Assembly (NCBI GenBank): GCA_902826885.1
Contig: CADEGL010000011.1
Coordinates: 33,485 to 77,564, forward strand
Reading direction: 5' to 3'
DNA: 44,080 nt
Source: an uncultured Alphaproteobacteria bacterium
Lineage (GTDB): Bacteria > Pseudomonadota > Alphaproteobacteria > CADEGL01
Under the pieces are notes generated by a model. The model worked only from the letters and a program-made list of their open reading frames with translations. It did not search any database and was not told the DNA's origin. Below are positions 11,307 through 27,776 of the stretch, in pieces. The position numbers and the translations under genes were made by a program. How positions within the stretch are numbered: the first letter of the stretch is position 1; each line of letters starts with the position of its first letter.

Positions 11307-11798
11307 TCAGGCGCGTACGCGCCGGATAAAATAGCGGCCAGGTTCTATGCCCGGCGGCAGCGGTAATTCTTCCCACCGCGCGGCGCGCATCACCTGATCC
11401 CCTACGATGATGCCGCCCGGAGCCATGAGCGCGTCGATCAAGGGCGCGATCTCGGCGCCCAACGCTTGACTCGCGGCCTCGTCGCCGCTGCCGATATCGG
11501 CATGACAGATCGCGATCTTGCCGCCCAGCGCCGATGCGGCCTGGGCCAACGTCGCGCGAAAATCGCCGAGCAGAAGATGCGCCGCGTCGGGAACGCAGGC
11601 CGGGTGGGCGGCGACATGCCGGTCGAATGCGAAAATCTCGCGTCCCCTTGCCCGGTCGCGCAGATGATCGTAAGTGCGGCCGTTGCCAAGCCCCACCTCG
11701 ATGACCGGCCCCGGCAACGGCGCGGCCAGCGCAACCGCCCGGTCGATGCAGGCGCGCTGCGCCTCCAGCCGCCGGATGAAACTGTCGAGACGGCTCAC
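11307..11798 (-). CDS. Small class I SAM-dependent methyltransferase-like protein
   Basis: A 163-residue protein if started at GTG 11798, whose bases GTGA overlap the stop of the upstream cyclic-nucleotide-binding gene. This 4-base overlap and the arginine/glycine-rich nature of the longer upstream reading favour this start. Motif I of Rossmann-type methyltransferases is visible (VIEVGLGNGRTYDHL, about residues 32-46). An acidic motif II-like position follows (IFAFDRHV) and then a motif resembling post-I (GDFRATL). No target-recognition domain is seen, so the substrate is unknown. It is the last gene of a minus-strand unit with the cyclic-nucleotide-binding and ABC-like genes. Confidence 0.72.
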   Translation of the reverse strand: MSRLDSFIRRLEAQRACIDRAVALAAPLPGPVIEVGLGNGRTYDHLRDRARGREIFAFDRHVAAHPACVPDAAHLLLGDFRATLAQAASALGGKIAICHADIGSGDEAASQALGAEIAPLIDALMAPGGIIVGDQVMRAARWEELPLPPGIEPGRYFIRRVRA

Positions 11799-12244
11799 GA
11801 CTGCTTGGACAGGGCCGCGAGCTGCTGATTGGTGCGGTCGAGACGGCGCGCCAGTTCGCGCATGATCTCCACCGCCATCTGCGGAAACTCCTTCACCATG
11901 CGAAGGAACAGGTCCTTGGAAATTTTGAGCGCCACCAGCTTGTCCACGGCGACCACCGTCGCCGTGCGCGGCACGTCGCACAGCACGGCGATCTCGCCGA
12001 GGATGCTGTGCTTGCCGATGGTGGCCACTTTCCGCTGGTTGTCTGTCGCGCCGATCATGACGTCGGCCTGGCCATCGAGCACGATATAGGCCGCGTCGCC
12101 CATGTCGCCCTGGCGGAAGATGGTCTGGCCCTTGGCATAGGTCAGCCGCTCACTGGTGAAGGCCAGGAGTTTAAGCTTGGACGGCTCCAGATTGGAGAAC
12201 AGCGGAATACGCCGGAGCGCGTCGACTTCTTCGTTGATGCTCAT
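11795..12244 (-). CDS. Stand-alone cyclic nucleotide-binding domain protein
   Basis: A 149-residue protein that is essentially one CNB domain. An N-terminal helix contains LRRIPLFSNLEPSKLKLLAF (about 10-29). Beta-roll strands follow (GDMGDAAYIVLDGQADVMIG), and a phosphate-binding cassette resembles CRP (GEIAVLCDVPRTATV). The C-terminal helix (about 120-145) has no helix-turn-helix, so it is not a transcription factor. GGAGG lies a few bases before the ATG. Its stop overlaps the methyltransferase start and it follows the ABC-like gene by 19 bases. A role as a regulatory subunit sensing cAMP or a related nucleotide for its neighbour is an inference. Confidence 0.87.
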   Translation of the reverse strand: MSINEEVDALRRIPLFSNLEPSKLKLLAFTSERLTYAKGQTIFRQGDMGDAAYIVLDGQADVMIGATDNQRKVATIGKHSILGEIAVLCDVPRTATVVAVDKLVALKISKDLFLRMVKEFPQMAVEIMRELARRLDRTNQQLAALSKQS

Positions 12245-12263: not shown

Positions 12264-14942
12264 CTACTCGTCTTTCAGCATCGCGTGGAACGCGGTGCCT
12301 GGCTTGTCCAATTCCTCGTAACGGCCCTGTTCGATGACGCGGCCGCCTTGCATGACGAGAATCCGGTCGAAGGGCCGCGCCAGGCTGGCCCGGTGCAACG
12401 CCCAGATCAGCCCGCCCGAGCGGAAGGTTTCCATCAGACCGTTGAGAATACGTGACTGGGTCTGCCCGTCCATCGAGGACGTCGCCTGGTTCACGATCAT
12501 GATGTCCGGATTCTTCATCAGACAGCGCGCGATGCCGAGCTTCTGCCGTTGGCTCGACGACAGGCGCGAGCCGCCCACGCCGACCTGGAAGTCCAGCCCC
12601 GCCTGCATCACCTTGCCGCGCAGATCGAGCGTGGCCAGCACTTCGGAAACCAGATCGCCGATGCGCGCCTGGCCCTCGGCCTGGCCGTAGGCCAGCTTGC
12701 CGAACAGGATATTGTCCTGGAGCGTGGATGCGGCGTTGTAGGCGTTGGCGTCGAAGAACTCGATCGAGCCGCGCAAGCTTTCCGGCAGTTCCGCGGCAAA
12801 CAGCTTGCGCGCCTCCAGAATGCGCTTTTCGAACGCTTCGTCGATCAGACCCAGACGGTGCCGGGCGTTGATCAGCTTGAAGGGCAAGGACAGAAGCCGC
12901 GCGCGATCATCGGCCGACATGGCGGCCGGTTCCACGTCCGCGACCCGCGTGACCAGCGCCTGGAACTCCGGCAGATCGTCCGAGCTGATGAAGCTGAACT
13001 GCTCGAAGAACTGGTGTCCCGGCGGCAAACCCGAGAACAATTCCACCATCGTCTCCGCCACCTTGCGGCCCATGACGATGAGGTCGTTCGTCAGCCCGGC
13101 TTTGTCGAGGACCTGGAGCACGTATTTGTTCGTGGCCAAGGCGTCGTCGGCGAAGGCGCCGCCCGTGGGCGTTCCGAACAACAGGTTTTCCGCGAGCGAG
13201 GCATTCTCGTTGTACTTGTTCGCGTCAAAGGGCTCGACCAAGGCTGCGAGCGAGGGATCGGAGATCAGGCGTTCCTTGAGCGCCGCGCGCGCCTTGAGGA
13301 TGGCTTCGGCCAAATCCGCACGCCGTGCCGGATCGATCCGGCCGCGCAATCCCATGTGATAGATGTCGTCGTCCATACCGACGAGGTCGAGAAGCTTGAG
13401 CGCTTTCTGCTCCAGCTCGTCCGGCCCCGCGACGCCGGCGGCCTGATAGTCGATCCAGTCGGCCAGGATGTCATAGGGCGTGTTGCCGGATTGTATGGCC
13501 CAAAGCTTCACCCGCTCGCGTTCGTGCTTGCCGGCTTCGTCCAACTCGGGCTCGCGCAACGGCCGGTGCTTCAGGCTGTAATACAGATTGTCGCGCACGC
13601 TGGTGCCCAACATGTGCGCGGCGTGCGAAACATAGGCGATACGGCGGCCCGTGACGGATTCGGGCAACTGCACCGCGTTCTGCCCGCCAACCATGATGCT
13701 GCCGCCAGTCGGTGCCAGCAGGCGCGCAAGCACGAGCGGCAATTCGTCCTTGCCGCTGGTGCCGTCGCCCACGATGGCGACCTTTTCGGTCAGCGGCGCG
13801 GTAAAGCTGACGCCATCGAGGAATTTGACCGCGCCGCCTTCGGTCAACGTCACGTTGGACAGCGCATAGTCGCCTTGGAGCCGCACACCCTCCGGCGGGT
13901 CGTCGTCGAGAACCTTGATGTCGACCAAGTCGGGCGGCTGAAACTGGCCGATCACCTGCTCATATTTGATGCGGATGTCTTCTTTCTGCTGATAGTAGTC
14001 CAGCAGTTCCTTCCACGGACCCGCCAAGTCCTTCTGCGCGGCGATGACCGCGACCAGTGCGCCGATGTCGACGCGGCCCTGGAACACCAGATAGCCGCCG
14101 ATCGAATAGAACAGGAACGGCGTAAGCTGGTTGATCGAGTTGTTGAGGAACTTGGCCAGGAATTTGAGCTGATAGATGTCGTAGCGGATCTTGTAGATCG
14201 TGCCGAGCCGGTGCGAGAAATCCGCGCGCTCGCGCGCCGAGGTATCGTGGGCGTGGACGTCCTGGATGCCCGCGATGGTTTCGCCGATGCGGTCGGCCAG
14301 GCTGCGCACCGTCTGCACGCGGCGCTTGGCCAATTGGTTCACGCGCTTCTGAATGCGCGGGATGACGTAAATCTGTACGGGATAGAAGGCCAGCGCGGCC
14401 GCGCCCAGGATCGGGTCCTGCACCAGGATGAAGACCAGTGGCACGATCAGGAGGCCGCCCTGGTAGATCGGCTGTACGAAGGCGTCGCCAATGAAGCCGC
14501 CCATGGGCTCCACTTCGGACGTGATCATGGGGATCGTTTCGCCCGACGACATCTTCTTGAAGTGCGGCAAGGGGAACCGGAGGATGCGCACATACAACTC
14601 GTAGCGCAGACGGCGCAGCATGCGCTCGCCCAACCGGCCCTTGAAGACGTTGATGTAGAACTTGAAGCCGCCGTTGATCAGCGTGAGCGCCAGGAAAATC
14701 GCGCACAGCATGAACAGGTAATGATGCGCGTTGAGCGAAACGCCCTGGACGACGTGCGCCGGATAGCTGCCCAGCGATCCATCCTTCACATGGACCGCGA
14801 CGTCCTTCAGATGGTTGATGATCAGCTTGGGCAGATCGTAGGAATAATACAGGAACGGATAGGAAACGGCGGCGAGCAACAGCAAAGTGATCTGCTCGCG
14901 CTTGGAATGACGAAGGATGAAGCCATACAGACTTTTGGGCAT
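12264..14942 (-). CDS. ABC exporter-like protein with a degenerate, expanded nucleotide-binding domain
   Basis: An 892-residue protein. Residues 1-330 form an ABC exporter-type membrane domain with about six helices. Residues 355-892 form one nucleotide-binding domain of roughly twice the usual size. Its catalytic motifs are altered. Walker A reads GDGTSGKD (392-399), without the final Ser/Thr. The Q-loop position is His440 (AYVSHAAHML). The signature is LSSSQ (794-798). Walker B ends in Asn818-Gln819 instead of Asp-Glu. The D-loop (SSMD) and switch His850 remain. Between Walker A and the signature, about 390 residues hold repeats of the helical subdomain. The start is at ATG 14942 (MPKSLYG); a longer in-frame reading lacks support. 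ATP hydrolysis is doubtful, and a scaffold, gated channel or regulatory role is possible. The substrate is unknown. It is the first gene of the unit with the cyclic-nucleotide-binding protein. Confidence 0.85.
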   Translation of the reverse strand: MPKSLYGFILRHSKREQITLLLLAAVSYPFLYYSYDLPKLIINHLKDVAVHVKDGSLGSYPAHVVQGVSLNAHHYLFMLCAIFLALTLINGGFKFYINVFKGRLGERMLRRLRYELYVRILRFPLPHFKKMSSGETIPMITSEVEPMGGFIGDAFVQPIYQGGLLIVPLVFILVQDPILGAAALAFYPVQIYVIPRIQKRVNQLAKRRVQTVRSLADRIGETIAGIQDVHAHDTSARERADFSHRLGTIYKIRYDIYQLKFLAKFLNNSINQLTPFLFYSIGGYLVFQGRVDIGALVAVIAAQKDLAGPWKELLDYYQQKEDIRIKYEQVIGQFQPPDLVDIKVLDDDPPEGVRLQGDYALSNVTLTEGGAVKFLDGVSFTAPLTEKVAIVGDGTSGKDELPLVLARLLAPTGGSIMVGGQNAVQLPESVTGRRIAYVSHAAHMLGTSVRDNLYYSLKHRPLREPELDEAGKHERERVKLWAIQSGNTPYDILADWIDYQAAGVAGPDELEQKALKLLDLVGMDDDIYHMGLRGRIDPARRADLAEAILKARAALKERLISDPSLAALVEPFDANKYNENASLAENLLFGTPTGGAFADDALATNKYVLQVLDKAGLTNDLIVMGRKVAETMVELFSGLPPGHQFFEQFSFISSDDLPEFQALVTRVADVEPAAMSADDRARLLSLPFKLINARHRLGLIDEAFEKRILEARKLFAAELPESLRGSIEFFDANAYNAASTLQDNILFGKLAYGQAEGQARIGDLVSEVLATLDLRGKVMQAGLDFQVGVGGSRLSSSQRQKLGIARCLMKNPDIMIVNQATSSMDGQTQSRILNGLMETFRSGGLIWALHRASLARPFDRILVMQGGRVIEQGRYEELDKPGTAFHAMLKDE
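12699..12836 (-). repeat. Internal coding repeat B in the ABC-like protein
   Basis: Codes for residues 703-748, ending FDANAYNAASTLQDNILFG, the partner of repeat A. The copy nearest the signature motif corresponds to the normal ABC helical subdomain after the Q-loop. A third, shorter relative (GTSVRDNLYYSL, residues 446-457) sits directly after the Q-loop position. Confidence 0.75.
13173..13310 (-). repeat. Internal coding repeat A in the ABC-like protein
   Basis: Codes for residues 545-590, ending FDANKYNENASLAENLLFG. It aligns with repeat B (residues 703-748) without gaps over the last 19 residues and with a two-residue gap before that, where both contain an IL-x-AR helix. It is followed by an LQVLDKAGL segment like those after the other copies. 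Confidence 0.75.
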
Positions 14943-15006: not shown

Positions 15007-15129
15007 CAACGCGTCGGGGCCTACGCTAAGAGCCGATAAGAACAAAGACAACCTTTCTGAGGCCCGAGGGGCTGTGCCATAGTCCGCGCGATCCCTTTGG
15101 GGGAGCGGAGACTCTGGGGGAGAACTCCG

Positions 15130-16353
15130 ATGACACGCGGTACGGGCGGCGCCCGCGTCTTGATCTACAGCCACGACAGCTTCGGCCTCGGCCACTTACG
15201 CCGCTGCCGGGCGATCGCGCATTCGCTCGTGCGCGCCAATCGCGACATGTCGGTCTTGATTCTGTCGGGTTCGCCCATCATCGGCAGTTTCGATTTCCGT
15301 ACACGGGTCGATTTCGTGCGCGTGCCGGGCGTCATCAAACTGCGCAACGGCGAATATACCTCGCTGAGCCTGCATCTGGACGTGCAGGAGACGTTGGCGC
15401 TGCGCGCTTCGATCATCCGGCACACCGCCGAGATCTTCGAGCCGGATCTGTTCCTCGTCGACAAGGAACCCCTCGGCCTGCGCGGCGAGGTGCGCGAGAC
15501 GCTCGAGATGCTGAAGGATCGCGGCACGCCGCTGGTGCTCGGCCTGCGCGACGTGATGGACGAGCCCTCGCTCTTGGCGCCCGAATGGGAACGCAAGGGC
15601 GTGACTCCCGCCTTGCGCGATCTCTATGACGAGATCTGGGTCTACGGCCTGCCGCAAATCTGCGATCCGCTGGAAGGCATCGAGCTGCCTTGGTCGGTCT
15701 ACCGCAAGGTCACCTACACCGGTTATCTCGGCCGCGACCCCATGGCCGACCGGCCTCCGTCACTGAATGCCTCCCTCGTCAACGAGCCGTTCCTTCTGGT
15801 CACGCCGGGCGGCGGCGGCGACGGCGGCGAACTGATCGATTGGGTCCTGTCGGCCTACGAGGTCGATAAGAAACTGCCGCTGCCGGCGCTCGTGGTCTTC
15901 GGCCCTTTCATGCAGCCGGAGCAGAAAGCCGTGTTCCAAACCAGGGTGGACGCGCTGCCGCGCGTACGCGCCATCACCTTTGACGCCCATATCGAAGATC
16001 TCTTGGCCCGCTCGGCGGGCATCGTGGCCATGGGCGGCTACAACACATTCTGCGAGATTCTGTCCTTCGACAAACCCGCCTTGATCGTGCCGCGCACCCT
16101 GCCGCGGCGCGAGCAGATGATCCGAACCGCGCGCGCGCAGGATTTGGGTCTGATCAAGATGTTGGTCGACGACGGCGCGCGCGATCCGTGGCGCATGGCC
16201 ACCGCCCTGCGTCATTTGCCGCAGCAAGCGCGGCCGTCCGACGTCGTCGTGCCGGGGCTTCTCGACGGGCTCACAAGCGTAAACCGGCTGGCCGGCCGCT
16301 GCATTGCGGCCGCTCCGCAACCGCGGGTGGTGGCGTCGCAACAAGGCCTCTGA
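15130..16353 (+). CDS. MurG-like glycosyltransferase (GT-B fold, predicted)
   Basis: A 407-residue protein of the predicted glycosyltransferase group related to MurG/GT28. The N-terminal domain starts with VLIYSHDSFGLGHLRR, the glycine-rich GxGH loop of MurG-type enzymes. The C-terminal domain has LLVTPGGGGDGG and a nucleotide-sugar-binding region IVAMGGYNTFCEIL (about 305-318), then PALIVPR. There is no signal peptide or membrane segment. The ATG at 15130 follows GGGGGAGA at a suitable distance. It is the first gene of the glycan operon and is followed 15 bases later by a GT4 gene. It resembles the protein encoded at 19306-20460. Donor and acceptor are unknown. Confidence 0.82.
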   Translation: MTRGTGGARVLIYSHDSFGLGHLRRCRAIAHSLVRANRDMSVLILSGSPIIGSFDFRTRVDFVRVPGVIKLRNGEYTSLSLHLDVQETLALRASIIRHTAEIFEPDLFLVDKEPLGLRGEVRETLEMLKDRGTPLVLGLRDVMDEPSLLAPEWERKGVTPALRDLYDEIWVYGLPQICDPLEGIELPWSVYRKVTYTGYLGRDPMADRPPSLNASLVNEPFLLVTPGGGGDGGELIDWVLSAYEVDKKLPLPALVVFGPFMQPEQKAVFQTRVDALPRVRAITFDAHIEDLLARSAGIVAMGGYNTFCEILSFDKPALIVPRTLPRREQMIRTARAQDLGLIKMLVDDGARDPWRMATALRHLPQQARPSDVVVPGLLDGLTSVNRLAGRCIAAAPQPRVVASQQGL

Positions 16354-16368
16354 GGTCGCGCGGGAATC

Positions 16369-17601
16369 ATGGCCGCGCCGGTTGCGTTCATTCTCAAGGG
16401 TTATCCACGCCTGTCCGAGACGTTCATCGCGCAAGAGATCCGCGCGCTCGAACAGCGCGGCCTCGACATTCGCATCTTCTCCATGCGTCACCCGACCGAC
16501 CGCGCGGTTCATCCGGTCCATCGCGAGATCGAAGCGCCGGTCTCTTACCTGCCCGAGTATCTTCACCACGCGCCGCTGCGTGTCGCGCGCGCGTGGTGGG
16601 CAATGCGGCGGCGGCCGCGCTACCGCGCCGCGCTGGCCGCGTTTCTGGCCGATTTGCGCCGCGACCGGACGCCCAACCGCATCCGCCGCTTTGGCCAGGC
16701 CCTTGTGTTGGCTCACGAGCTGCCCACGGAGATCGCCGCGCTGCACGCCCATTTCCTCCATACACCCGCCTCGGTCGCGCGCTATGCCGCGATCCTGACG
16801 GGATTGCCTTGGACCTGCTCGGCCCACGCCAAGGACATTTGGACGACGCCGGAGTGGGAGAAGCGCGAGAAGCTGGCCGCCATGGCATGGCTCGTGACCT
16901 GCACCGACGCGGGCCGTGCGCACCTGGCTTCGCTGGCGCCCTCGACGGAAAAGGTCGCGCTGGTCTATCACGGGCTCGACCTCTCGCGCTTCGCGCCCCG
17001 GCCGGCGCCGCGTGCCGCGACGAAGACACCCGTGATTCTGTCCGTTGGTCGCGCCGTCGAGAAGAAGGGCTTCGACGATCTTTTGACCGCCCTGGCCGCA
17101 CTGCCGCCCGCGCGCGATTGGCGCTTCGTTCATGTCGGCGGCGGCCCCTTGCTGCCCGCGCTCAAGCGCCAAGCCGCGCAAGCCGGCATCACGGCGCGCA
17201 TCGAATGGCGCGGCGCCTTGCCGCAGGACGCGGTGCTGGGTCTCTACCGCGAAGCCGATCTGTTCGTGCTGCCTTCGCGCGTGGCCGGCAACGGCGACCG
17301 CGACGGGTTGCCCAACGTGCTGATGGAGGCCCACAGTCAGGGTTTGGCTTGCGTTTCCACGCGTGTATCGGGAATTCCCGAGTTGATCGCGGACGGCGAG
17401 ACGGGCGTGCTGGTTCCGCCCGGCGATGCGCCCGCCCTCGCGCGCGCGATTGAAAACCTGCTGGCCGACCCCGCCACGCGCGCGCGTCTGGGTCAGGCGG
17501 GCCAGGCGCGTGTCGCGGCCCATTTCTCCCATGCTGGCGGCATCGACATTCTGGCCGCGAAGTTCGGTTTGCCATGCGCATCGCCTTCCACGCGCCGCTG
17601 A
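16369..17601 (+). CDS. Glycosyltransferase family 4 protein
   Basis: A 410-residue GT-B enzyme. The N-terminal acceptor domain begins with FILKGYPRLSETFIAQEI, typical of GT4 enzymes of exopolysaccharide clusters. The C-terminal domain has ILSVGRAVEKKGFDDLL (about 221-237), the motif DLFVLPSRVAGNGDRDGLP and the following EAHSQGLACVSTRVSGIPE with the E-x7-E donor-binding signature. The ending DGETGVLVPPGD is also typical. It transfers a sugar from an activated donor at the cytoplasmic face of the membrane. It overlaps the next glycosyltransferase gene by 28 bases, so translation is probably coupled. Confidence 0.9.
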   Translation: MAAPVAFILKGYPRLSETFIAQEIRALEQRGLDIRIFSMRHPTDRAVHPVHREIEAPVSYLPEYLHHAPLRVARAWWAMRRRPRYRAALAAFLADLRRDRTPNRIRRFGQALVLAHELPTEIAALHAHFLHTPASVARYAAILTGLPWTCSAHAKDIWTTPEWEKREKLAAMAWLVTCTDAGRAHLASLAPSTEKVALVYHGLDLSRFAPRPAPRAATKTPVILSVGRAVEKKGFDDLLTALAALPPARDWRFVHVGGGPLLPALKRQAAQAGITARIEWRGALPQDAVLGLYREADLFVLPSRVAGNGDRDGLPNVLMEAHSQGLACVSTRVSGIPELIADGETGVLVPPGDAPALARAIENLLADPATRARLGQAGQARVAAHFSHAGGIDILAAKFGLPCASPSTRR

Positions 17602-18725
17602 AACCGCCCGATCATCCGGTGCCCTCCGGCGACCGGTTGGTGGCGCGTCTGTTGATGGCGGCCCTGGCGCGCGGCGGGCACGATGTCGCGCTGGTCTCCC
17701 GCCTGCGCACATGGGACGGCGCGGGCGACGTGGCGCGCCAGGAACGCCTTCGCGAGATCGGCGCGCGCATGGCGGACCGGCTCGCGCGGCGCTATCGCGC
17801 GGCTCCGCCCGGAACGCGACCCCAGGCCTGGCTTACTTATCATCTCTATCACAAGGCGCCTGATTGGCTGGGGCCGGCAGTCACCGATGCGCTGGGGATT
17901 CCGTATCTGGTCGCCGAAGCCTCCATCGCCAACAAACAGGCCGGCGGACCATGGCGCATGGGGCACGGGGCTACGATGAAGGCCGTCGCGCGCGCCGACG
18001 CGATCATCTCGCTCAACGAAGCCGATGAGGGCGGTGTGCGCCCGTGGGTCGCCGACGAATCGCGATTGCATCGCCTGGCGCCATTCCTCGATCCGGCGCC
18101 GTTCACCGCCGCGCAGGCCACTCGCACGCGTCACCGCGCGGCGCTTGCCCGCGACCGCGGCTTGGACCCCACGCAACCTTGGCTCACCACCGTTGCCATG
18201 ATGCGCGCGGGCGACAAGCTGCGTTCGTATACGGTTCTGGCGGATGCGCTGCGGCGCGTGACCGATCGGCCTTGGCAGCTCATGGTCGCGGGCGATGGAC
18301 CCGCGCGGCCGGAGGTCGAGGCCGCTCTGTCCGCCTTGGGGAGCGAGCGGGTACGTTTCGTCGGCCGTCTCGATGAAGCGGCGCTGCCTGGCTTCTACGC
18401 GGCCTCGGATCTTTATGTATGGCCCGCCGTGCGCGAGGCTTTCGGCATGGCATTCCTGGAAGCGCAAGCCAGCGGTTGCGCCGTGGTCGCGGGCGCGGAA
18501 GGCGGTGTACCCGGTATCGTTCGTGACGGCGAAACCGGCCTGTTGACACCGCCTGGCGATGCGGCGGAATTCGCGCGCGCGGTCGCGCGGATGCTCGACG
18601 ACGAAGATCTTCGCCGCCGCATGAGCGCGGATGCGATGCGGCGCGTTGCGACCGATCACAGCATCGATGGGGCGGCACGCACGCTCGGAGCCATCCTCGC
18701 GCGGGTCACGAGAGGCGCGGCATGA
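17574..18725 (+). CDS. Glycosyltransferase family 4 protein
   Basis: A 383-residue GT-B protein. The N-terminal half starts MRIAFHAPLKPPDHPVPSGDR and contains a loop for acceptor binding. The C-terminal donor domain holds VGRLDEAALPGFYAASDLY and then PAVREAFGMAFLEAQASGC, the GT4 EAFGxxxLEA signature, and DGETGLLTPPGD. The start lies inside the preceding gene (28-base overlap), and the stop overlaps the phosphatase start by four bases (ATGA). No membrane segment is evident. It is likely the second sugar-adding step of the same glycan, which is an inference from operon context. Confidence 0.88.
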   Translation: MRIAFHAPLKPPDHPVPSGDRLVARLLMAALARGGHDVALVSRLRTWDGAGDVARQERLREIGARMADRLARRYRAAPPGTRPQAWLTYHLYHKAPDWLGPAVTDALGIPYLVAEASIANKQAGGPWRMGHGATMKAVARADAIISLNEADEGGVRPWVADESRLHRLAPFLDPAPFTAAQATRTRHRAALARDRGLDPTQPWLTTVAMMRAGDKLRSYTVLADALRRVTDRPWQLMVAGDGPARPEVEAALSALGSERVRFVGRLDEAALPGFYAASDLYVWPAVREAFGMAFLEAQASGCAVVAGAEGGVPGIVRDGETGLLTPPGDAAEFARAVARMLDDEDLRRRMSADAMRRVATDHSIDGAARTLGAILARVTRGAA

Positions 18726-19309
18726 CCACGCTCATCCTCATCCGCCACGGACCGACCGAGTGGAACGAGATCGGCCGCGTCCAGGGCCACACCGACATTC
18801 CCCTGTCCGAGGCCGGCCGCGCGCGGGTAAAAGGCTGGCGTGTCCCCGCACCTTTTCTCGCCCACCATTGGATCGCAAGCCCGCTCGCGCGCGCGCGTGA
18901 AACAGCCGAAATCCTGGCGGGGCGCGCGCCCGCGCTGGAACCGCGCATCGCCGAGATGCATTGGGGCGAATGGGAAGGCGAGACGCTGGAGAATCTGCGC
19001 GCGCGCTATGGCGACGCCATGGTGGAGAACGAAGCCAAAGGGCTCGATTTCCGCGCCGTTGGCGGAGAGAGCCCGCGCGATGTCTGCGCGCGCATCGCCG
19101 CCTTCTTCGCCGACCGCGCCAAGCTTCGCCAGGACACGGTCGCCGTCAGTCACAAAGGCGTCATCCGCGCGGCACTCGCCCTCGCGACCGGCTGGGATAT
19201 GCTCGGCAAGCCGCCGGCCGATCTGGATTGGTACTGCGCCCACGCATTCACTCTTGGAACCGATGGCGCGATTCGCCCCGCGCGCTTCAACATCCCGCTC
19301 GCGCCATGA
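18722..19309 (+). CDS. Histidine phosphatase family protein
   Basis: A 195-residue phosphoglycerate mutase-like phosphatase. The catalytic motif LIRHGPTEWN has its phospho-accepting His9. Other conserved blocks are GHTDIPLSEAGR, SPLARARETAEIL with a phosphate-binding Arg, MHWGEWEGETLENL, and the second histidine in VAVSHKGVIRA. The family dephosphorylates small sugars or nucleotide-related phosphates. In a glycosyltransferase operon it could remove a phosphate from a sugar precursor, but this is only contextual. It is joined by 4-base overlaps to the genes on either side. Confidence 0.9.
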   Translation: MTTLILIRHGPTEWNEIGRVQGHTDIPLSEAGRARVKGWRVPAPFLAHHWIASPLARARETAEILAGRAPALEPRIAEMHWGEWEGETLENLRARYGDAMVENEAKGLDFRAVGGESPRDVCARIAAFFADRAKLRQDTVAVSHKGVIRAALALATGWDMLGKPPADLDWYCAHAFTLGTDGAIRPARFNIPLAP

Positions 19310-20460
19310 GCAAGCGCGTCATGATCTATGTCCAGCATCTGCTCGGCAGCGGTCATCTGCGCCGCGCGGCGGCGCTCGCCCGCGCTTGCGCGGCGAACGG
19401 CATGAACACGCTTCTGGTCTCCGGCGGGCGTGCCATTCGCGACCTGAATTACGGCCAAGCGTCCTTCACACAGCTTTCGCCCGCCGCCGCGCGCGACGAG
19501 AATTTCTCCGGCCTGATCGACGAACATGGCGTAAACGTCGACGAAACGTGGCGCGCGGCGCGGCGCGATACGCTGCTGGCGGCATTCGCCATGTTCCGCC
19601 CCGATGCGCTGGTGACGGAAACCTATCCGTTCGGACGGCGGCAAATGGCGTTCGAGCTGGCACCGCTTCTCGATGCCGCGTGGGCTGCAAAACCGAAGCC
19701 TCTCGTCATCTCCTCCGTACGCGACATCCTGCAGGCGAAGTCCGGTAAGGTTTCGGACCAGATGGCCGCCGTCGCGCGCCGCTTCGATCATGTGCTCGTT
19801 CACGGCGACCGGGAGTTCGTCGCTCTCGATGCGAGCTTTCCGCTCGATCCGGCCCTTGCGTCCAAGCTGGTCTATAGCGGCTATATCGCCGAGCCCGCCG
19901 AGGCGCGCGGCGGCGCGGGCGATCCCGGCTGGGACGAGGTGATTGTCTCCTCGGGCGGCGGCGCCGTGGGGATGATACTGCTGACCACCGCCATCGCGGC
20001 GCGCCCTTTAACGAAGGCAAAAGATGCCGTTTGGCGTCTCCTTGCCGGAGGCGCGTTGCCGGCGGGCGATTTCGCGCGGCTGCAGGCAACGGCACCGCAA
20101 GCCGTCATCGTCGAGCGCGCGCGCGCGGATTTCCGGCGCCTTTTAGCCAACGCCCGCCTGTCAGTCTCGCAAGCCGGATATAATACGGTGATGGAAATTC
20201 TTGCCGCCCGCATTCCCGCCGTGTTGGTGCCCTTTGCCGGAAATGGACAGACCGAACAGCAGGCGCGCGCCAATCTGCTGCATGCGCGCGGGCGCGCCGG
20301 GTTGGTCGCGGAGAATATGCTGACGCCATCCACGCTCGCCGCGGCGATCGACCGCGTCCTGGAGATGCCGGTTTCGGAGGTCGCGCTGAAGCGGGATGGC
20401 GCTCGGGAAAGCGCGCGGCTGCTCGCCACGTGGCTTGCCGGGAAAGCGCCGGCGGCATGA
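19306..20460 (+). CDS. MurG-like glycosyltransferase (GT-B fold, predicted)
   Basis: A 384-residue protein of the same predicted family as the one at 15130-16353. The N-terminal IYVQHLLGSGHLRRAAALA carries the GxGHLRR loop, and the C-terminal VSQAGYNTVMEILAARIP corresponds to the nucleotide-sugar site. VIVSSGGGAVG (about 220-230) matches the GGG linker of MurG-like enzymes. The ATG at 19306 overlaps the phosphatase stop (ATGA), and its own stop overlaps the next ATG in the same way. It was probably derived by an old duplication from, or with, the first gene of the operon, because only the key loops are clearly conserved. Confidence 0.82.
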   Translation: MSKRVMIYVQHLLGSGHLRRAAALARACAANGMNTLLVSGGRAIRDLNYGQASFTQLSPAAARDENFSGLIDEHGVNVDETWRAARRDTLLAAFAMFRPDALVTETYPFGRRQMAFELAPLLDAAWAAKPKPLVISSVRDILQAKSGKVSDQMAAVARRFDHVLVHGDREFVALDASFPLDPALASKLVYSGYIAEPAEARGGAGDPGWDEVIVSSGGGAVGMILLTTAIAARPLTKAKDAVWRLLAGGALPAGDFARLQATAPQAVIVERARADFRRLLANARLSVSQAGYNTVMEILAARIPAVLVPFAGNGQTEQQARANLLHARGRAGLVAENMLTPSTLAAAIDRVLEMPVSEVALKRDGARESARLLATWLAGKAPAA

Positions 20461-21260
20461 CAAACGCCTGGGACGCACTGACGCGCGAGCTCGATCTTTG
20501 GGGTCAAGCCGAAAAGAGTGCCGATTTCTGGTGGCGCGATGACGACGCCCACGAGCCCTCGCCCGCTCTTGCCCGGCTGGCCGCGACCGCCCGAGGCGCC
20601 CCCATTGGCCTGGCCGTCGTTCCCGCCAAGCTAAGCGATAGTCTTTCGCAAATCATTGATAAATATGGGAATATTTCCATCCTTCAGCATGGCTATTCGC
20701 ATCAGAACCACGCCAGCCCGACCGACGCCAAGATCGAACTGGGACCTCAGCGCCCGCTCGCCCACACGCTCGGGGACCTCGCCACTGGCTGGGCGCGGCT
20801 TGAAGCGGTCTTCGGCCCCCGCGCCCTGCCCGTTCTGGTCCCGCCTTGGAATCGCCTCGCGCCCGGCCTGGTTCCGCTGCTGCCGGAAATCGGCTATCGC
20901 GGCCTCTCGACCTATGGCGCGCGGGGTCGGCCGGAGCCCATCCCCAATCTGGCGCAGGTGAACACGCACGTGGACATTGTCGACTGGCGTGGCAGCCGCG
21001 GCTTTCTGGGTGACGACGCCGTGCTGGGCCGCGCGGTGGATTTTCTGGCACGCCGCCGTGCGGGACAGATCGATGCGGACGAGCCGACGGGCATTTTGAG
21101 CCACCATCTGGTCCACGACGACGCCTGCTGGACGTTTCTCGAACGCTTCGTCGCACTGGTCGAAGCCCATGGCGCGGCGCGTTGGCGGCGCCCCGCGGAT
21201 CTGTTCCGTCCCCGCCCGGTGCCGCCTCGGCGCGCGCGGCCGATGGAAAAGAGCGTATGA
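20457..21260 (+). CDS. Polysaccharide deacetylase-like protein
   Basis: A 267-residue protein resembling the NodB/polysaccharide deacetylase family. FWWRDDDAHEPSP (about 24-36) provides the metal-binding and catalytic aspartates, and ILQHGYSHQNH (about 75-85) the metal-binding histidine motif. VPPWNRL (about 120-126) is the usual motif 3. There is no signal peptide, so unlike many family members it should act in the cytoplasm, which suits an enzyme working on a lipid- or nucleotide-linked sugar. It starts in an ATGA overlap with the glycosyltransferase gene. Its exact substrate is unknown. Confidence 0.8.
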   Translation: MTNAWDALTRELDLWGQAEKSADFWWRDDDAHEPSPALARLAATARGAPIGLAVVPAKLSDSLSQIIDKYGNISILQHGYSHQNHASPTDAKIELGPQRPLAHTLGDLATGWARLEAVFGPRALPVLVPPWNRLAPGLVPLLPEIGYRGLSTYGARGRPEPIPNLAQVNTHVDIVDWRGSRGFLGDDAVLGRAVDFLARRRAGQIDADEPTGILSHHLVHDDACWTFLERFVALVEAHGAARWRRPADLFRPRPVPPRRARPMEKSV

Positions 21261-21790
21261 GCACCCATCGCTACGATAAACACAGCGTGCGCGCCGACTT
21301 GCGCCGCGCGATCACCGGCCTGGTCCTGACTGTGGGTCCGATGCTGCTTTTGGGCGACAGCATCGTGGCTTTGGCCATCCTGGGTGCGCTGGCTCTTCTG
21401 TTTCTGGCCTTCGGCCTGCGTACGATGCTGCGCGGCATGACGCTGGTTCATGTCACGGAACACGGGCTAAGCTCCGATTCTCTGGGCGGACGCGAGGGAC
21501 GCTTGCCTGGGTTCGCGCCGCGAACGATCGCGTGGCGCGATATTCGCAAGGTCGGTTTGAGGTTTTTTTCACTCAAGCGCGACCGGTCGGAGGGGTGGAT
21601 GGAGTTGAGCCTAGGGGACGGCCATCGAAGCCTGCGGCTCGATTCGACCCTGGATGGGTTCAAGGACATCGTCGTCCGCGCGGCGGACGCCGCGCGCGCG
21701 AACAACGTGGCGCTCTCCGACAGCACGCAGACCAATCTGGCGGCCCTCGGCATCCGCGCCGGCGTCCAGAACGGCGGAGACGCCGCGTGA
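21257..21790 (+). CDS. Hypothetical membrane protein with two helices and a cytoplasmic tail
   Basis: A 177-residue protein of unrecognised family. Two hydrophobic helices (about residues 20-40 and 42-60, separated by a short turn) form a hairpin near the N-terminus. A tail of about 110 residues follows, with a strand-rich segment (TLVHVTEHGLSSDSLGG, then IAWRDIRKVGLRFFSLKRDRS) that looks like a PH-like or bacterial PH-domain fold. That fold is a guess from pattern only. It is translationally coupled on both sides: ATGA with the deacetylase gene, GTGA with the ABC ATPase gene. It bridges the glycan genes and the transporter genes and may be needed by either. Confidence 0.75.
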   Translation: MSTHRYDKHSVRADLRRAITGLVLTVGPMLLLGDSIVALAILGALALLFLAFGLRTMLRGMTLVHVTEHGLSSDSLGGREGRLPGFAPRTIAWRDIRKVGLRFFSLKRDRSEGWMELSLGDGHRSLRLDSTLDGFKDIVVRAADAARANNVALSDSTQTNLAALGIRAGVQNGGDAA

Positions 21791-23670
21791 CCCAGGATCT
21801 TCTCCGCGTCGAGGACTTGAAGATCGATTTCCATGTCCATGGCGGCGTGATCAACGCCGTGAAAGGCGTGTCGTTCACCATCAAACAGGGCTCGACCGTG
21901 GCCCTTGTCGGCGAATCGGGCTCGGGCAAGTCCGTCATCGCCCAATCCATCATGGGCATCCTGCCCAAGGTGGGGCGGGTTTCCGGCGGGCGCATCCTCT
22001 TTTCGGACCCGGCAGCCAACGGCACTGTTGTCGACATCGCCCAGCTCGATCCCGACGGACAGTCCATGCGGCGGATTCGCGGCGGGCGCATTTCGATCAT
22101 CTTCCAGGAACCGATGACTTCGCTGTCGCCGCTTCACACCGTGGGCGACCAGGTAAGCGAGGCGCTCCATCTCCACCGCGACGTCGACAAGGCCACGGGC
22201 AAAGACCTCACCATCGAGATGCTGCGTTTGGTCGGCTTCCCCGACCCCGAGCGTGCCTATCGCAACTATGCCTTCGAGCTTTCCGGTGGCTTGCGCCAGC
22301 GCGCCATGATCGCCATGGCGCTGATCTGCCGTCCCGCATTGCTCATCGCCGACGAACCCACGACGGCGCTGGATGTCACCATTCAGGCGCAGATCCTAAA
22401 GCTGCTGGGCGATCTGCAGCGCGAGCTTGGCATGGCCGTGCTGATCATCACCCATGATTTGGGCGTGGTCGCCAACGTGGCCGAGGACGTGGTTGTGATG
22501 TTCCGCGGTGAAGTCATGGAATCCGGCCCGGCCAAGGAGCTGTTCCGCGATCCGCAGCATCCGTATCTGAAGGGCCTGTTCCGCGCCGTTCCGCACTTCG
22601 ACATGAAGCGTGACGAACGCCTGGTGCCGCTGCGCGAGATCAAGGGCGAGATGGGCCACCTTCTCAAGAAGAAGACGGCGCCGCCGGCGACTGGCCCCGC
22701 GCCCATTCTCAAGGTCGAGCACGTTTGCAAGAGCTTTCAGATTCGCGGCGGTATGACCGGCGGCAAGACCGTCAACCGAATCTTGGCGGTGGACGACGTC
22801 AGCTTCGAGATCGCGCGGGGCGAATGCCTGGGCCTGGTCGGCGAGAGCGGTTGCGGCAAGACGACCTTGTCCAAGATCATCATGCGCGCGCTGACGCCCG
22901 ATTCGGGCGGCGTCACCTACCATGACGGAACCAAGCCGGTCGACGTGCTGGCGCTGGAAGGCCGCGCGCTGATCGACTTCCGAAAGAAGCTTCAGCTCAT
23001 TTTCCAAGACCCGTTCAGTTCGCTCAATCCCCGCATGACGGTGTTCGACATCATCAGCGAACCGCTGGTCATCCATAAGGTCGGCGATTCGGCTTATCGC
23101 GTCGAGATGGTGAAGGAGCTTCTGCGCTTGGTCGGTCTGGATGTCCGGCATTTGAACCGTTATCCGCACAGCTTCTCTGGCGGGCAGCGTCAGCGCATCG
23201 GCATCGCGCGCGCTCTGGCGCTTCGCCCCGACATCATCATTTGCGATGAACCGGTCTCGGCGCTCGACGTTTCGATCCAGGCACAGATCCTCAATCTTCT
23301 GAAGGATCTTCAGTCCGAGCTAGGCCTCACTTATCTGTTCATCTCGCACAATTTGGCCGTGGTGGATTATGTGGCCGCGCGTATCGCCGTGATGTGCAAG
23401 GGGAGACTGGTCGAGCTGGCACCGCGCGAAATGCTGTTCAGCAACCCGGTGCACCCCTACACGAAGGCGCTGGTCGCCGCCGTGCCTTATCCCGACCTGA
23501 ATCGCAAACTCGATCTCTCGCTGCTGATGGAAGGCCGGGCTTCCAACCCCTCGGCCTGGCCCCGGCCTTTTACGATCGACGATCAGTCCCAACCCACGTT
23601 GGTCGATTTGGGCGGCGGGCATTGCGTGCGCGCGGACGCGCGGGCCGATGTGCGGGAACTGGCGTCGTGA
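21787..23670 (+). CDS. Fused double ABC ATPase of a peptide/oligosaccharide-type importer
   Basis: A 627-residue protein made of two complete ABC ATPase domains of the oligopeptide-importer type (DppD-DppF fused in one chain, as in YejF). Domain 1 has Walker A GESGSGKS (42-49) and signature LSGGLRQR (about 165) with DEPTTALD. Domain 2 has Walker A GESGCGKT (352-359) and signature FSGGQRQR (463-470) with DEPVSALD. All catalytic residues are intact, unlike those of the ABC-like protein at 12264-14942. It starts with GTG in a GTGA overlap and powers the two permeases encoded downstream. Confidence 0.94.
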
Positions 23671-25604
23671 AGCGGCTGGCGCTTCTCGGTTTCGCGCTGG
23701 CCTTGTGCTTCACTGCGTCGGCGCACGCGCAAACCAAGGCGCCCCCGGCCGAGGAAGTTCCGTCTCTTTCCAAGCTGGTGAGCGAGGGCAAGCTGCCGCC
23801 AGTGGCCAAGCGCTTGCCGGAAAATCCCCGTGTGGTTTCCTTTGGCGACGGCACAGAGTCCGGCGCCTATGGCGGCACGATGCGTATGCTGATGGCTTCG
23901 TCCAAGGACACGCGCCAGATGGTCGTCTACGGCTATACGCGCCTGGTCGTTTGGACTCCGCAGTACACGTTGGAGCCGGACCTTCTGGAATCCTACGACG
24001 TGCAGGACGGCAGGATTTTCACGCTTCGTTTGCGCAAGGGCCACAAATGGTCCAACGGCGAGCCCTTTACCGCCGAAGACTTTCGCTATTACTGGGAAGA
24101 TGTGGCGCTCAATAAGGAACTGTCGCCTTTCGGTCCACCGAGCCAATTGCTGTCGGAAGGCGAGGTGCCCAAATTCCAGGTCATCAACGAGACGACCGTC
24201 CGCTTTACGTGGCCCAAACCCAATCCGTTCTTCCTGCCCGCGCTTGCCGGCACGACGCCTCTCTACATCTATCGCCCGGCGAAGTATCTGAAGCAGTTCC
24301 ATGCCGGCTATTCCGACCCGTCGATCTTGGCGCGACGCGCCAAGGAGCAAGGGCTGCAAGGGTGGGCCGCGCTGCACAACCGCCTGGACAATCAGTATCG
24401 CAACGACAATCCGGCGCTGCCCACGCTGGACCCGTGGATTCTCAAGACATCCCCGCCGTCCGAACGTTTCGTGTTCACGCGCAATCCCTATTACCACCGC
24501 GTCGACCCCCAGGGACGGCAGCTCCCTTATATCGACGAAGTGATCATGAATGTCGCGGATGGGAAGATCATTCCGGCGAAGACGGGCGCGGGCGAATCCG
24601 ACCTGCAGGCGCGCTATATCCGCTTCGACAATTATACGTTCCTGAAGGAAAGCGAGAAGCGGATCGACCAGAGCGTTTTGCTGTGGCGCACGGCGGTGGG
24701 ATCGCAATTCACCCTGTACCCCAACCTGAACGTGAACGATCCGGTCTGGCGTGCGCTGTTCCGCGACGTCCGGTTCCGCCGTGCGCTTTCCCTGGCCATC
24801 GACCGGCACGAGGTCAATCAGGTCATCTATTACGGTCTGGCTATCGAATCGGCGAACACGGTCTTGCCGGAAAGCCCGCTTTACAAACCGGAATACCAAA
24901 CGGCGTGGAGCCAGTTCGACCTGGGCCAAGCCAACGCGCTTCTGGACGAGTTGGGAATGACGAAGCGAAATTCACGCGGCGTGCGCCTCTTGCCCGACGG
25001 TCGTCCGCTGGAACTTGTCGTGGAAACCGCAGGCGAAAGCTCCGAACAGGCCGATATCCTCGAATTGATCCGCGACACGTGGCAGAAAGCGGGTATCCGC
25101 CTTTTGATCAAGACGTCGCAACGCGAGGTGTTCCGCAATCGCGTCTTCTCCGGCGACACAATGATGTCGGTCTGGACCGGTCTCGATAACGGACTGCCAA
25201 CCCGGGATTTGAGCCCGGAGGAGTTGGCGCCTACCAATCAGCAACAGCTCCAATGGCCAAAATGGGGCCAGTATTTCGAGACGCGCGGCAAGGCCGGGGA
25301 AGCGCCGGACATCGAGCCCGCAAAGCGTCTTTTGGAATTCAATCAACAGTGGCGAACCGCCACGAATGAGGCCGAGAAGCTGGAGGCCTGGACCCATATG
25401 CTGGAAATCCACGCAAGCGAGGTGTTCACCATCGGCGTGGTCGCGGGCGCGCTTCAACCCGTTGTCGTCACCAACCGGCTGCGCAATGTGCCCGTGAAAG
25501 GCGTCTATGCGTGGGAGCCAGGCGCCCATTTCGGCATCTACAAGCCCGACACGTTCTGGCTCGGCGAATCGCGAAAGCCGGTTCGTTCGCAGGCGATGAA
25601 GTAG
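23667..25604 (+). CDS. ABC importer solute-binding protein (family 5, peptide/oligosaccharide type)
   Basis: A 645-residue periplasmic protein of SBP family 5. A signal peptide is evident ([20 protein letters not shown], with cleavage near residue 21). The mature part shows family features such as GKWSNGEPFTAEDFRYYW (written here as in the sequence HKWSNGEPFTAEDFRYYW), the central RFRRALSLAIDRHEVNQVIY and the late repeat VFRNRVFSGD. Its length, larger than DppA, resembles members that bind oligosaccharides as well as those binding peptides. The GTG start overlaps the ATPase stop (GTGA). It delivers substrate to the permeases encoded next. Confidence 0.9.
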   Translation: MKRLALLGFALALCFTASAHAQTKAPPAEEVPSLSKLVSEGKLPPVAKRLPENPRVVSFGDGTESGAYGGTMRMLMASSKDTRQMVVYGYTRLVVWTPQYTLEPDLLESYDVQDGRIFTLRLRKGHKWSNGEPFTAEDFRYYWEDVALNKELSPFGPPSQLLSEGEVPKFQVINETTVRFTWPKPNPFFLPALAGTTPLYIYRPAKYLKQFHAGYSDPSILARRAKEQGLQGWAALHNRLDNQYRNDNPALPTLDPWILKTSPPSERFVFTRNPYYHRVDPQGRQLPYIDEVIMNVADGKIIPAKTGAGESDLQARYIRFDNYTFLKESEKRIDQSVLLWRTAVGSQFTLYPNLNVNDPVWRALFRDVRFRRALSLAIDRHEVNQVIYYGLAIESANTVLPESPLYKPEYQTAWSQFDLGQANALLDELGMTKRNSRGVRLLPDGRPLELVVETAGESSEQADILELIRDTWQKAGIRLLIKTSQREVFRNRVFSGDTMMSVWTGLDNGLPTRDLSPEELAPTNQQQLQWPKWGQYFETRGKAGEAPDIEPAKRLLEFNQQWRTATNEAEKLEAWTHMLEIHASEVFTIGVVAGALQPVVVTNRLRNVPVKGVYAWEPGAHFGIYKPDTFWLGESRKPVRSQAMK

Positions 25605-25611
25605 GTTTTCG

Positions 25612-26610
25612 ATGCTGCGCTATGTCGCTCACCGCCTCTTGGTCATGGTCCCGACGCTGTTGGCGATCAGCTTTATCGTCTTCGTCATCATCCAGCTTCC
25701 GCCTGGCGATTACCTGGAAAGCTATGTGGCCGAACTACAGGCGCGCGGCGAAGGCGTCGATTTCGACAAGGTGGCGTTCCTGCGTCAGCAGTACGGGCTG
25801 GATCAGCCGTTCATGGTCCAATACGCGAAATGGGTCTTCGGCCTTCTTCAAGGCGATTTGGGTTATTCCTTTGAATTCAACCTCCCCGTCAACGCCGTCG
25901 TCGGCGATCGGCTGTGGCTGACTGCGCTAGTCTCCTTCGCGACCATTATCTTCACCTGGATCGTGGCATTTCCGATCGGTGTCTATTCCGCGACGCATCA
26001 GTACAGCGCAGCGGACCATTCGCTGACCTTCATCGGCTTCCTAGGCTTGGCCACGCCGAACTTCCTCTTGGCCCTCGTCCTTCTCTATCTGGCCAATGTC
26101 TGGTTCGGCACCTCGATCGGCGGACTGATGGACGAGCGCTTCATCGGTCAGCCCTGGACGCTGGAGAAGGTCGGTTCGATCCTGGCCCATCTGTGGATTC
26201 CCGTGATCGTGATCGGCACCTCCGGCACGGCGGGCATGATCCGCCGCCTGCGCGCGAACCTCCTCGACGAGTTGCAAAAGCAATATGTGGTCACCGGCCG
26301 GGCCAAGGGTCTTCCGCCCTTCAAGCTTCTGGTCAAATACCCGCTGCGCATGTCGCTCAACCCCTTCATCGCGGATATCGGAAGCCTTTTGCCTGAGATT
26401 ATCTCGGGCGCCGCCATCGTGTCGGTCGTGCTCTCGCTGCCAACCACGGGACCCATGCTTCTTGACGCGCTGCGCAGCCAGGATATGTACCTGGCCGGCT
26501 CGTTCTTGATGTTCATGGCGCTTCTGACCGTGATCGGCGTGCTGATCTCCGATCTTCTGCTGGCCGTGCTCGATCCCCGTATCCGGCTTGAGGGGAGCGC
26601 CGTGAAATGA
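25612..26610 (+). CDS. ABC importer permease, DppB/OppB type
   Basis: A 332-residue inner-membrane permease. It begins LRYVAHRLLVMVPTLLAIS, the classic first helix of DppB/OppB proteins. About six helices are present, and the cytoplasmic coupling helix includes QYVVTGRAKGLPPFKLL, the EAA-loop region contacting the ATPase. A periplasmic insert after helix 1 (about residues 30-65) fits the larger members of the family. It is seven bases downstream of the solute-binding protein gene and overlaps the next permease gene by four bases (ATGA). Confidence 0.93.
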   Translation: MLRYVAHRLLVMVPTLLAISFIVFVIIQLPPGDYLESYVAELQARGEGVDFDKVAFLRQQYGLDQPFMVQYAKWVFGLLQGDLGYSFEFNLPVNAVVGDRLWLTALVSFATIIFTWIVAFPIGVYSATHQYSAADHSLTFIGFLGLATPNFLLALVLLYLANVWFGTSIGGLMDERFIGQPWTLEKVGSILAHLWIPVIVIGTSGTAGMIRRLRANLLDELQKQYVVTGRAKGLPPFKLLVKYPLRMSLNPFIADIGSLLPEIISGAAIVSVVLSLPTTGPMLLDALRSQDMYLAGSFLMFMALLTVIGVLISDLLLAVLDPRIRLEGSAVK

Positions 26611-27776
26611 CGGACAGCCCCATGCCTGGCGAGATGCGCCACTACGTCGCCAAGGGCAAGTTCGATCCTTACGAGGTCGACGTCCTGACGCCGGAACAGG
26701 AGCGTTATTACCTGGCGTCCCAGTGGAAGCTGATGTGGTGGAAGTTCAAGCGCCACCGCATCGCCGTCATCTCCGGCATCATTCTGCTGATCTTCTACGG
26801 CACGATCCTGATCAGCGAGATTCTGGCGCCTTACAATCAGCACACGCGGAATACCGACTATCTGTTCGCGCCGCCGCAAGCCGTCCGGCTTTTCCACGAA
26901 GGCTCGTTCGTCGGCCCTTTCGTTTACGGGCTCAAGACGAACCTAAATATGGATGTGCTGAAATGGGAGTACAGCAAGGACTATTCGCGCGTGCTACCCT
27001 TGCGCTTCTTCTGCACGGGCGACGCTTATGAGTTCTGGGGCCTGATCCCCGGCCGCTTCCACTTGGTCTGTCCGCCCGACGGTGGCCAGCTTTTCGTGCT
27101 GGGCACCGACAGGTTAGGGCGCGACATGCTGTCGCGTATCCTATATGGCGCACGCATTTCGTTGACCATCGGCCTGATCGGCATCGCGGTCAGCTTTACC
27201 CTCGGCATCGTGATCGGCGGCTTGGCCGGCTATTACGGCGGCTGGATCGACAACGTCAGCCAGCGCGTAATCGAAGTATTCCGGTCCTTCCCCCATCTGC
27301 CGCTGTGGATGGCTTTGTCGGCCGCATTGCCGGTCAGCTGGAGTCCGCTGGTCATCTATTTCGGCATCACGCTGATTCTCGGCCTGCTCGATTGGACCGG
27401 CTTGGCACGTGCCGTGCGCTCGAAGCTTCTAGCCCTGCGTGAAGAGGATTTCTGCACCGCCGCCCAGCTCATGGGCGCGTCGCCGCGGCGCATCATCGGC
27501 CGGCATCTGATGCCGAGCTTCATGAGCCATCTGATCGCCTCGGCCACGCTTTCGATTCCCAGCATGATCCTGGGCGAAACAGCCCTGTCGTTCCTGGGGC
27601 TGGGCCTGCGGCCGCCCATCACGAGTTGGGGCGTCCTTCTGAACGAGGCGCAGAACATCAACGTCGTCGCGCTTTATCCCTGGCTGATGTTGCCGGTGGT
27701 TCCCGTCATCGTCGTCGTGCTGGCTTTCAACTTCTTGGGTGACGGGCTGCGCGACGCGGCCGACCCTTACAAATAG
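26607..27776 (+). CDS. ABC importer permease, DppC/OppC type
   Basis: A 389-residue inner-membrane permease. The DppC-type N-terminal helix lies at about residues 53-75 after a charged cytoplasmic tail. An unusually long periplasmic loop (about 80-165) follows, including CTGDAYEFWGLIPG, and then LGTDRLGRDMLSRILYGAR, the hallmark of the family. The coupling loop holds EEDFCTAAQLMGASPRRII. Four or five further helices complete the domain. The long loop resembles that of YejE-like members. It is the last gene of the operon: the next gene is convergent with only five bases between the stops. Confidence 0.92.
   Translation: MTDSPMPGEMRHYVAKGKFDPYEVDVLTPEQERYYLASQWKLMWWKFKRHRIAVISGIILLIFYGTILISEILAPYNQHTRNTDYLFAPPQAVRLFHEGSFVGPFVYGLKTNLNMDVLKWEYSKDYSRVLPLRFFCTGDAYEFWGLIPGRFHLVCPPDGGQLFVLGTDRLGRDMLSRILYGARISLTIGLIGIAVSFTLGIVIGGLAGYYGGWIDNVSQRVIEVFRSFPHLPLWMALSAALPVSWSPLVIYFGITLILGLLDWTGLARAVRSKLLALREEDFCTAAQLMGASPRRIIGRHLMPSFMSHLIASATLSIPSMILGETALSFLGLGLRPPITSWGVLLNEAQNINVVALYPWLMLPVVPVIVVVLAFNFLGDGLRDAADPYK

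Follow-up and report, generated by a model that had tools for sequence, protein, structure and literature searches.

The locus described here raises the question of what an ABC exporter-like protein may do when the motifs of an active ATPase are altered and its nucleotide-binding domain (NBD) carries a long insert. The gene lies in a window of 44,080 nucleotides (the whole stretch of DNA analysed) on contig CADEGL010000011.1 of an uncultured Alphaproteobacteria bacterium, and its features and neighbours are listed in Table 1. A preliminary description, made from the sequence alone, read the product as an expanded pseudo-ATPase on a complete exporter-type membrane domain, possibly with a nucleotide-sensing or structural role.

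Table 1. Features of the locus, with positions in the window
Feature	Position	Strand	Evidence or remark
Pseudo-ABC exporter, 892 aa	12264..14942	-	Membrane domain ~1-335, NBD ~350-892 with triplicated helical subdomain
Exporter-type transmembrane domain, residues 1-338	13929..14942	-	PF00664, E 1.7e-23
Altered Walker A GDGTSGKD, residues 392-399	13746..13769	-	Asp replaces Mg-binding Ser/Thr; homologue alignment
Helical subdomain copy 1, residues ~434-580	13203..13643	-	Profile similarity to copies 2 and 3 exceeds that of shuffled controls
Helical subdomain copy 2 (middle), residues ~562-740	12723..13259	-	Match to copy 3, E 1.8e-13; structural alignment
Helical subdomain copy 3, residues ~722-832	12447..12779	-	Profile comparison; signature-like LSSSQ, Walker B-like MIVNQ
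Lone cyclic-nucleotide-binding domain protein, 149 aa	11795..12244	-	PF00027, E 4.6e-20; phosphate-binding motif GEIAVLCDVPRTATVV
SAM methyltransferase (PF12692)	11307..11981	-	Next gene, often conserved here; true start probably near 11924 or later
Glycosyltransferase, GT28-like	15097..16353	+	Divergent from ABC gene
GT4 glycosyltransferase	16369..17601	+	
GT4 glycosyltransferase	17574..18725	+	
Histidine phosphatase, conserved	18722..19309	+	PF00300, E 3.8e-39
GT28-like glycosyltransferase	19306..20460	+	C-terminal part of ORF 18961-20460; start approximate
Conserved protein	20430..21260	+	WWRDDD and HGxxHxNH (HGYSHQNH) segments
Peptide-type ABC importer OppDF, OppA, OppB, OppC	21532..27776	+	

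An exporter fold with altered ATPase motifs

The reading frame has no internal stops over its 892 residues. Pfam matches over cut-off were obtained for ABC_membrane (PF00664; residues 75-301, 81 bits) and for ABC_tran (PF00005), the latter split in two stretches, the better of which covers residues 375-484 (51.7 bits). The modelled NBD core aligns with the NBD of ComA over 239 of 239 residues (Z 28.9, rmsd 1.8); the full-length AlphaFold model was built with 13 sequences as input, and its membrane domain was modelled poorly. By fold and descent the protein is a member of the ABC exporter superfamily, and the pseudo-ATPase on an exporter-type membrane domain that was first described is borne out by the Pfam, motif and profile data and is conserved across the family.

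The motif set of an active ATPase is not present. Besides Walker A (Table 1), the Q-loop position is occupied by His440, the signature reads LSSSQ (residues 794-798) and Walker B ends with N818-Q819. Four motifs are changed; the preliminary description spoke of five, its own text naming only four. It was right that the D-loop (D825) and the switch histidine (H850) are preserved, and also that the distance from Walker A to the signature is much enlarged (~390 against ~100 residues): we counted 394 residues, whereas four canonical exporters encoded in this genome all have 96.

Distribution of the family and conservation of the motifs

Relatives were found in 131 of 385 alphaproteobacterial genomes (match E 1e-60 or better), while a phylum-wide sample gave matches within the class plus one NBD-less relative outside it. 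The homologues are 857-927 aa long, or 1018-1103 aa with a fused domain. Two copies with disrupted frames were also observed. One (L086:4415-6838, genome G210) is interrupted by a single TAG within the matched region and lies in a cluster that is otherwise similar; the other (L012:5001-7534) is a distant relative (32%) with a split frame in the sponge-associated assembly Candidatus Spongiihabitans, possibly transferred or misbinned.

Comparison with the closest relative (93% identical) gave a dN/dS of 0.082 overall and 0.085 in the insert. Conservation is highest in the membrane domain, where mean column homozygosity is 0.53; the other parts of the protein have 0.38-0.46. The intact frame, the dN/dS of 0.08 and the family-wide conservation rule out a decayed pseudogene.

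Among 92 aligned family members, 71 carry Asp or Glu at Walker A residue 399 and 6 carry Ser or Thr; the Walker B Asp is retained in 16 and the Q-loop Gln in 22, and the LSGGQ signature occurs in none. Other positions are kept more often: the Walker A Lys (K398) in 58/92, the catalytic Glu (position 819) in 50/92, the D-loop Asp (D825) in 84/92 and the switch His (H850) in 34/92. Lys, Ser/Thr, Asp, Glu and His occur together in a single member (L045), and the full canonical set is seen in 0 of the 92 relatives, so the family supplies no intact homologue of which the window protein might be simply a decayed copy. The alignment indicates that motif change is a property of the family, seen most regularly in the magnesium ligands and the signature, and that both the altered residues and the repeats described below are conserved among homologues.

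Since the Walker A Lys, the catalytic Glu and the D-loop Asp persist in many relatives, residual ATP binding or slow hydrolysis would be possible. Going further, the protein could be an ATP-driven exporter or flippase with unusual working ATP sites, which tolerate acidic residues after the Walker A Lys and a Walker B Asn and are modulated by the cyclic-nucleotide-binding domain encoded next door. The frequencies of K398, E819 and D825, the intact fold of the NBD core and the core catalytic residues of L045 are consistent with such a transporter; the loss of both the Mg-binding residues and LSGGQ throughout the family, the scarcity of H850 and the existence of relatives lacking an NBD speak against it, and on balance we consider it rather unlikely.

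Triplication of the helical subdomain

The enlarged stretch had been proposed to hold three copies of a helical module, and family profiles of the copies agree with this. The scores are 77 for R2-R3 (E 1.8e-13), 41 for R1-R2 (E 1.4e-6) and 33 for R1-R3 (E 2.6e-5), each E-value referring to a single pairwise comparison, while the highest score among 30 column-shuffled controls per profile pair was at most 19. These similarities indicate that the triplication of the module is real. The borders of the copies were shifted from those first given, and with the adjusted borders (Table 1) neighbouring copies overlap where one ends and the following one begins. Copies 1 and 2 resemble each other in their C-terminal parts as well (~542-582 and ~702-740; score 61, E 2.2e-14; shuffles at most 12.7), sharing R-I-L-x-A-R and, after it, (V/I)E-x-FD-x3-YN.

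Copy 1 has a permissive x-N-hydrophobic pattern in 87 of the 92 members, and copies 2 and 3 have it in all 92. The LD-x2-G segment ascribed earlier to every copy is present in copies 1 and 2 and not in copy 3. By eye, signature-like helices in copies 1 and 2 appeared homologous to that of copy 3; this was rejected, with scores of 9.7 and 10.5 lying within the shuffled range. With the insert profile, no homologues having one or two copies only were seen in a 398-genome sample across the phylum, and the profile matched genomes of the same class only.

The insert modelled alone reached pLDDT 83 and pTM 0.75, and copies 2 and 3 have the identical order of elements in this model (strand-helix-strand-helix-helix). 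A plain Foldseek search of the PDB with the insert gave no match under E 0.5. In a second look at the candidates the top 38 rows were all ABC transporters, whose region from the Q-loop to the signature aligns to insert residues ~573-718, that is, to the middle copy. The best structural match of this copy has Z 5.8 (rmsd 2.8 over 70 residues), which is too low for one match to be trusted, so that the agreement of the matches on one region carries the argument. The middle-copy model thus weakly resembles ABC helical subdomains, and to that extent modelling favours the possibility, raised earlier as a check, that the repeats fold as extra helical subdomains. An unrelated domain lacking internal symmetry, the outcome that would have spoken against the repeats, is ruled out by the self-similarity of the profiles and by the structural second look.

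A linked cyclic-nucleotide-binding domain

Nineteen bp downstream of the ABC gene starts a gene for a cyclic-nucleotide-binding (cNMP) domain protein. The product matches PF00027 and has the conserved cassette Glu and Arg (GEIAVLCDVPRTATVV), and Pfam detected no DNA-binding domain in its 149 residues. In such cassettes the Glu and Arg contact the ribose and the cyclic phosphate, and a Thr after the Arg is found in domains that accept cGMP. In 94 of 99 loci a relative of this domain is either fused or encoded adjacently, on the same strand and no more than 700 bp downstream; one of the five misses, L093, carries a diverged fused domain. C-terminal fusion to the ABC-like protein was seen in ten members. 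The phosphate-binding cassette GE...RTAT occurs in 66 loci, with variants in most of the remaining ones, a motif of the form GE...R[TS]A in most loci overall and weaker cNMP motifs in the most distant members (L092-L096).

This context points to the adjacent or fused cNMP domain, on which the preliminary description was silent, rather than the NBD, as the probable sensor. Of the overall reading first proposed, the expanded pseudo-ATPase with a symmetric insert stands, while the sensing role would pass from the NBD to this domain. It is from the gene fusions, and from these only, that contact between the ABC-like and cNMP proteins may be deduced.

The constancy of this partner also bears on whether the protein is the degenerate half of a heterodimeric exporter whose intact half is encoded elsewhere, as in TM287/288 or TmrAB. 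A single degenerate site is common in heterodimeric exporters (PMC7756269), and canonical half-exporters are present in the same genome. However, a second exporter half lies nearby in only 1 of 34 fetched loci, the linked partner being a cNMP domain instead, and because the Walker and signature sides are both altered, a heterodimer would have no composite site that is canonical throughout. We regard such a pairing as improbable.

Gene neighbourhood

The products of 15097-16353 and 16369-17601 are probable counterparts of Rhizobium etli RedA and RedB, respectively. The 20430-21260 protein has no Pfam match and, judged by eye from its segments, appears to be polysaccharide deacetylase-like. The order of three glycosyltransferases, phosphatase, glycosyltransferase, deacetylase-like protein and importer recurs in many genomes, and all four of the OppDF, OppA, OppB and OppC genes recur in linked clusters. 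On plasmid pA of R. etli CIAT 652 (L103:650-15282), the ABC and cNMP genes occur with redA, redB, the peptide importer and a class III adenylate cyclase gene, cyaAa. The cNMP gene there is labelled as a transcriptional regulator, and a cNMP-binding domain is the only domain found in its product.

Of 27 fetched neighbourhoods (up to 20 kb each), 6 contain a relative of the R. etli class III cyclase, against ~1.3 expected by a hand calculation that used the genome sizes and cyclase counts of 26 of the 27 genomes; the count is small, and every tested genome carries several cyclases. At L118 (15865-19997) and L119 (1494-5904) a class III cyclase lies directly beside the ABC-cNMP pair and the glycosyltransferase cluster is absent. 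Glycosyltransferases are likewise missing around the ABC and cNMP genes of L112, L122 and L125. Since the pair occurs without them at some loci, the link to glycans is not universal.

Relatives consisting of the membrane domain only

Four relatives, 40-43% identical, consist of the membrane domain only (L138:2194-3231, L139:4-1149, L140:9868-11094 and L141:11540-12781), and they group as a single, moderately supported clade (0.86) within the family. No cNMP gene was found beside them in the three tested, and one of the four is located in a glycosyltransferase cluster. In L139 and L141 the NBD-less gene is followed by a PCu(A)C-like copper-chaperone gene, and in L140 it lies among metal-related genes.

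The existence of these proteins implies that the membrane domain can stand without an NBD, as it does in SbmA/BacA. The window protein might then be a secondary transporter of that kind, a proton gradient driving its membrane domain and the NBD persisting as a regulatory or structural remnant. Proteins of the SbmA type consist of an ABC-type membrane domain that lacks an NBD and draws its energy from protons (PMC13316013), and the NBD-less relatives, together with the membrane domain being the best conserved part of the family, fit this possibility. Against it, the membrane domain of the window protein matches PF00664 and gave no match to the SbmA/BacA family PF05992, and the NBD is still under purifying selection; we think proton drive quite unlikely.

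A model for the function of the family

The reading we prefer, with a probability of roughly one half, is that of a protein with the exporter fold that no longer acts as an ATPase, is controlled by its cNMP partner and serves a surface-glycan pathway. According to this model, a conserved alphaproteobacterial family with the exporter fold probably stopped working as ordinary ATPases and would hydrolyse no ATP. The NBD may have been retained as a folded platform, into which two extra copies of the helical subdomain were inserted and in which the ATP and magnesium ligands changed. In an NBD it is the helical subdomain that touches the membrane domain and bears the signature motif, and for this reason the added copies probably provide surfaces for docking and coupling.

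The likely input is the cNMP domain, whether encoded next door or fused to the C-terminus. Ligand binding would alter the seating of the NBD against the membrane domain, and thereby open, close or recruit the latter. The likely job would be to move or pass on a glycan or glycolipid built by the neighbouring glycosyltransferases, so that control by cyclic nucleotides and a glycan-related substrate are both predicted. More tentatively, and with less confidence than we place in the preferred reading, the protein could be a ligand-gated membrane machine in which a cyclic-nucleotide switch replaces the ATP motor and the triplicated subdomain couples the cNMP and membrane domains.

In any case the family is a real and widespread variant of the ABC exporters, for which no description was found in the literature searched. 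The search, which covered few subscription journals, returned no report of a triplicated helical subdomain and nothing relevant on the pseudo-ABC family, on RedA/RedB or on linked cNMP and ABC genes. As a rule a degenerate ATP site is accompanied by a working one; here a whole widespread family combines altered sites, an enlarged form of the subdomain that couples ATP to transport and a tie to a cNMP domain, with NBD-less relatives alongside. If the preferred model is true, a bacterial membrane protein of the ABC fold would be under the control of a second messenger, and the family would offer a natural system for probing a role of the NBD other than that of motor. Existing annotations name the members multidrug ABC transporters and the partner a transcriptional regulator, and both are probably misleading.

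Comparison with known systems

Type IV ABC transporters (type I exporters) such as MsbA, Sav1866 and ComA likewise have a membrane domain followed by an NBD. The window protein differs from them by ~300 extra residues, corresponding to the two added copies of the helical subdomain, by its degenerate ATP motifs and by the linked or fused cNMP domain. Its best NCBIfam score is to MsbA (TIGR02203), at 183.5 bits against a cut-off of 602, and hence it is not an MsbA equivalog.

Non-canonical residues in Walker A, Walker B, the signature or the switch His are known from TM287/288, TmrAB, TAP, CFTR and Pdr5 (PMC7756269). Such degenerate-site exporters retain one working site together with another NBD, whereas the pseudo-ABC family has altered sites in every member and no regular linkage to a partner half.

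The partner shares the PF00027 domain and the GE...PRTAT cassette with the cyclic-nucleotide-binding domains of CRP/FNR-type proteins and channels. It differs from these in being a 149-aa protein without a detected DNA-binding domain and in being tied to an ABC-type membrane protein.

The SbmA/BacA (SLiPT) peptide transporters, thought to descend from ABC transporters that lost their NBDs (PMC13316013), use an ABC-type membrane domain without ATP hydrolysis, and the pseudo-ABC family too includes NBD-less relatives, one of which scores 14.6 bits to PF05992, under the cut-off of 24. The window protein itself, in contrast to SbmA/BacA, belongs to a different Pfam family and retains its NBD.
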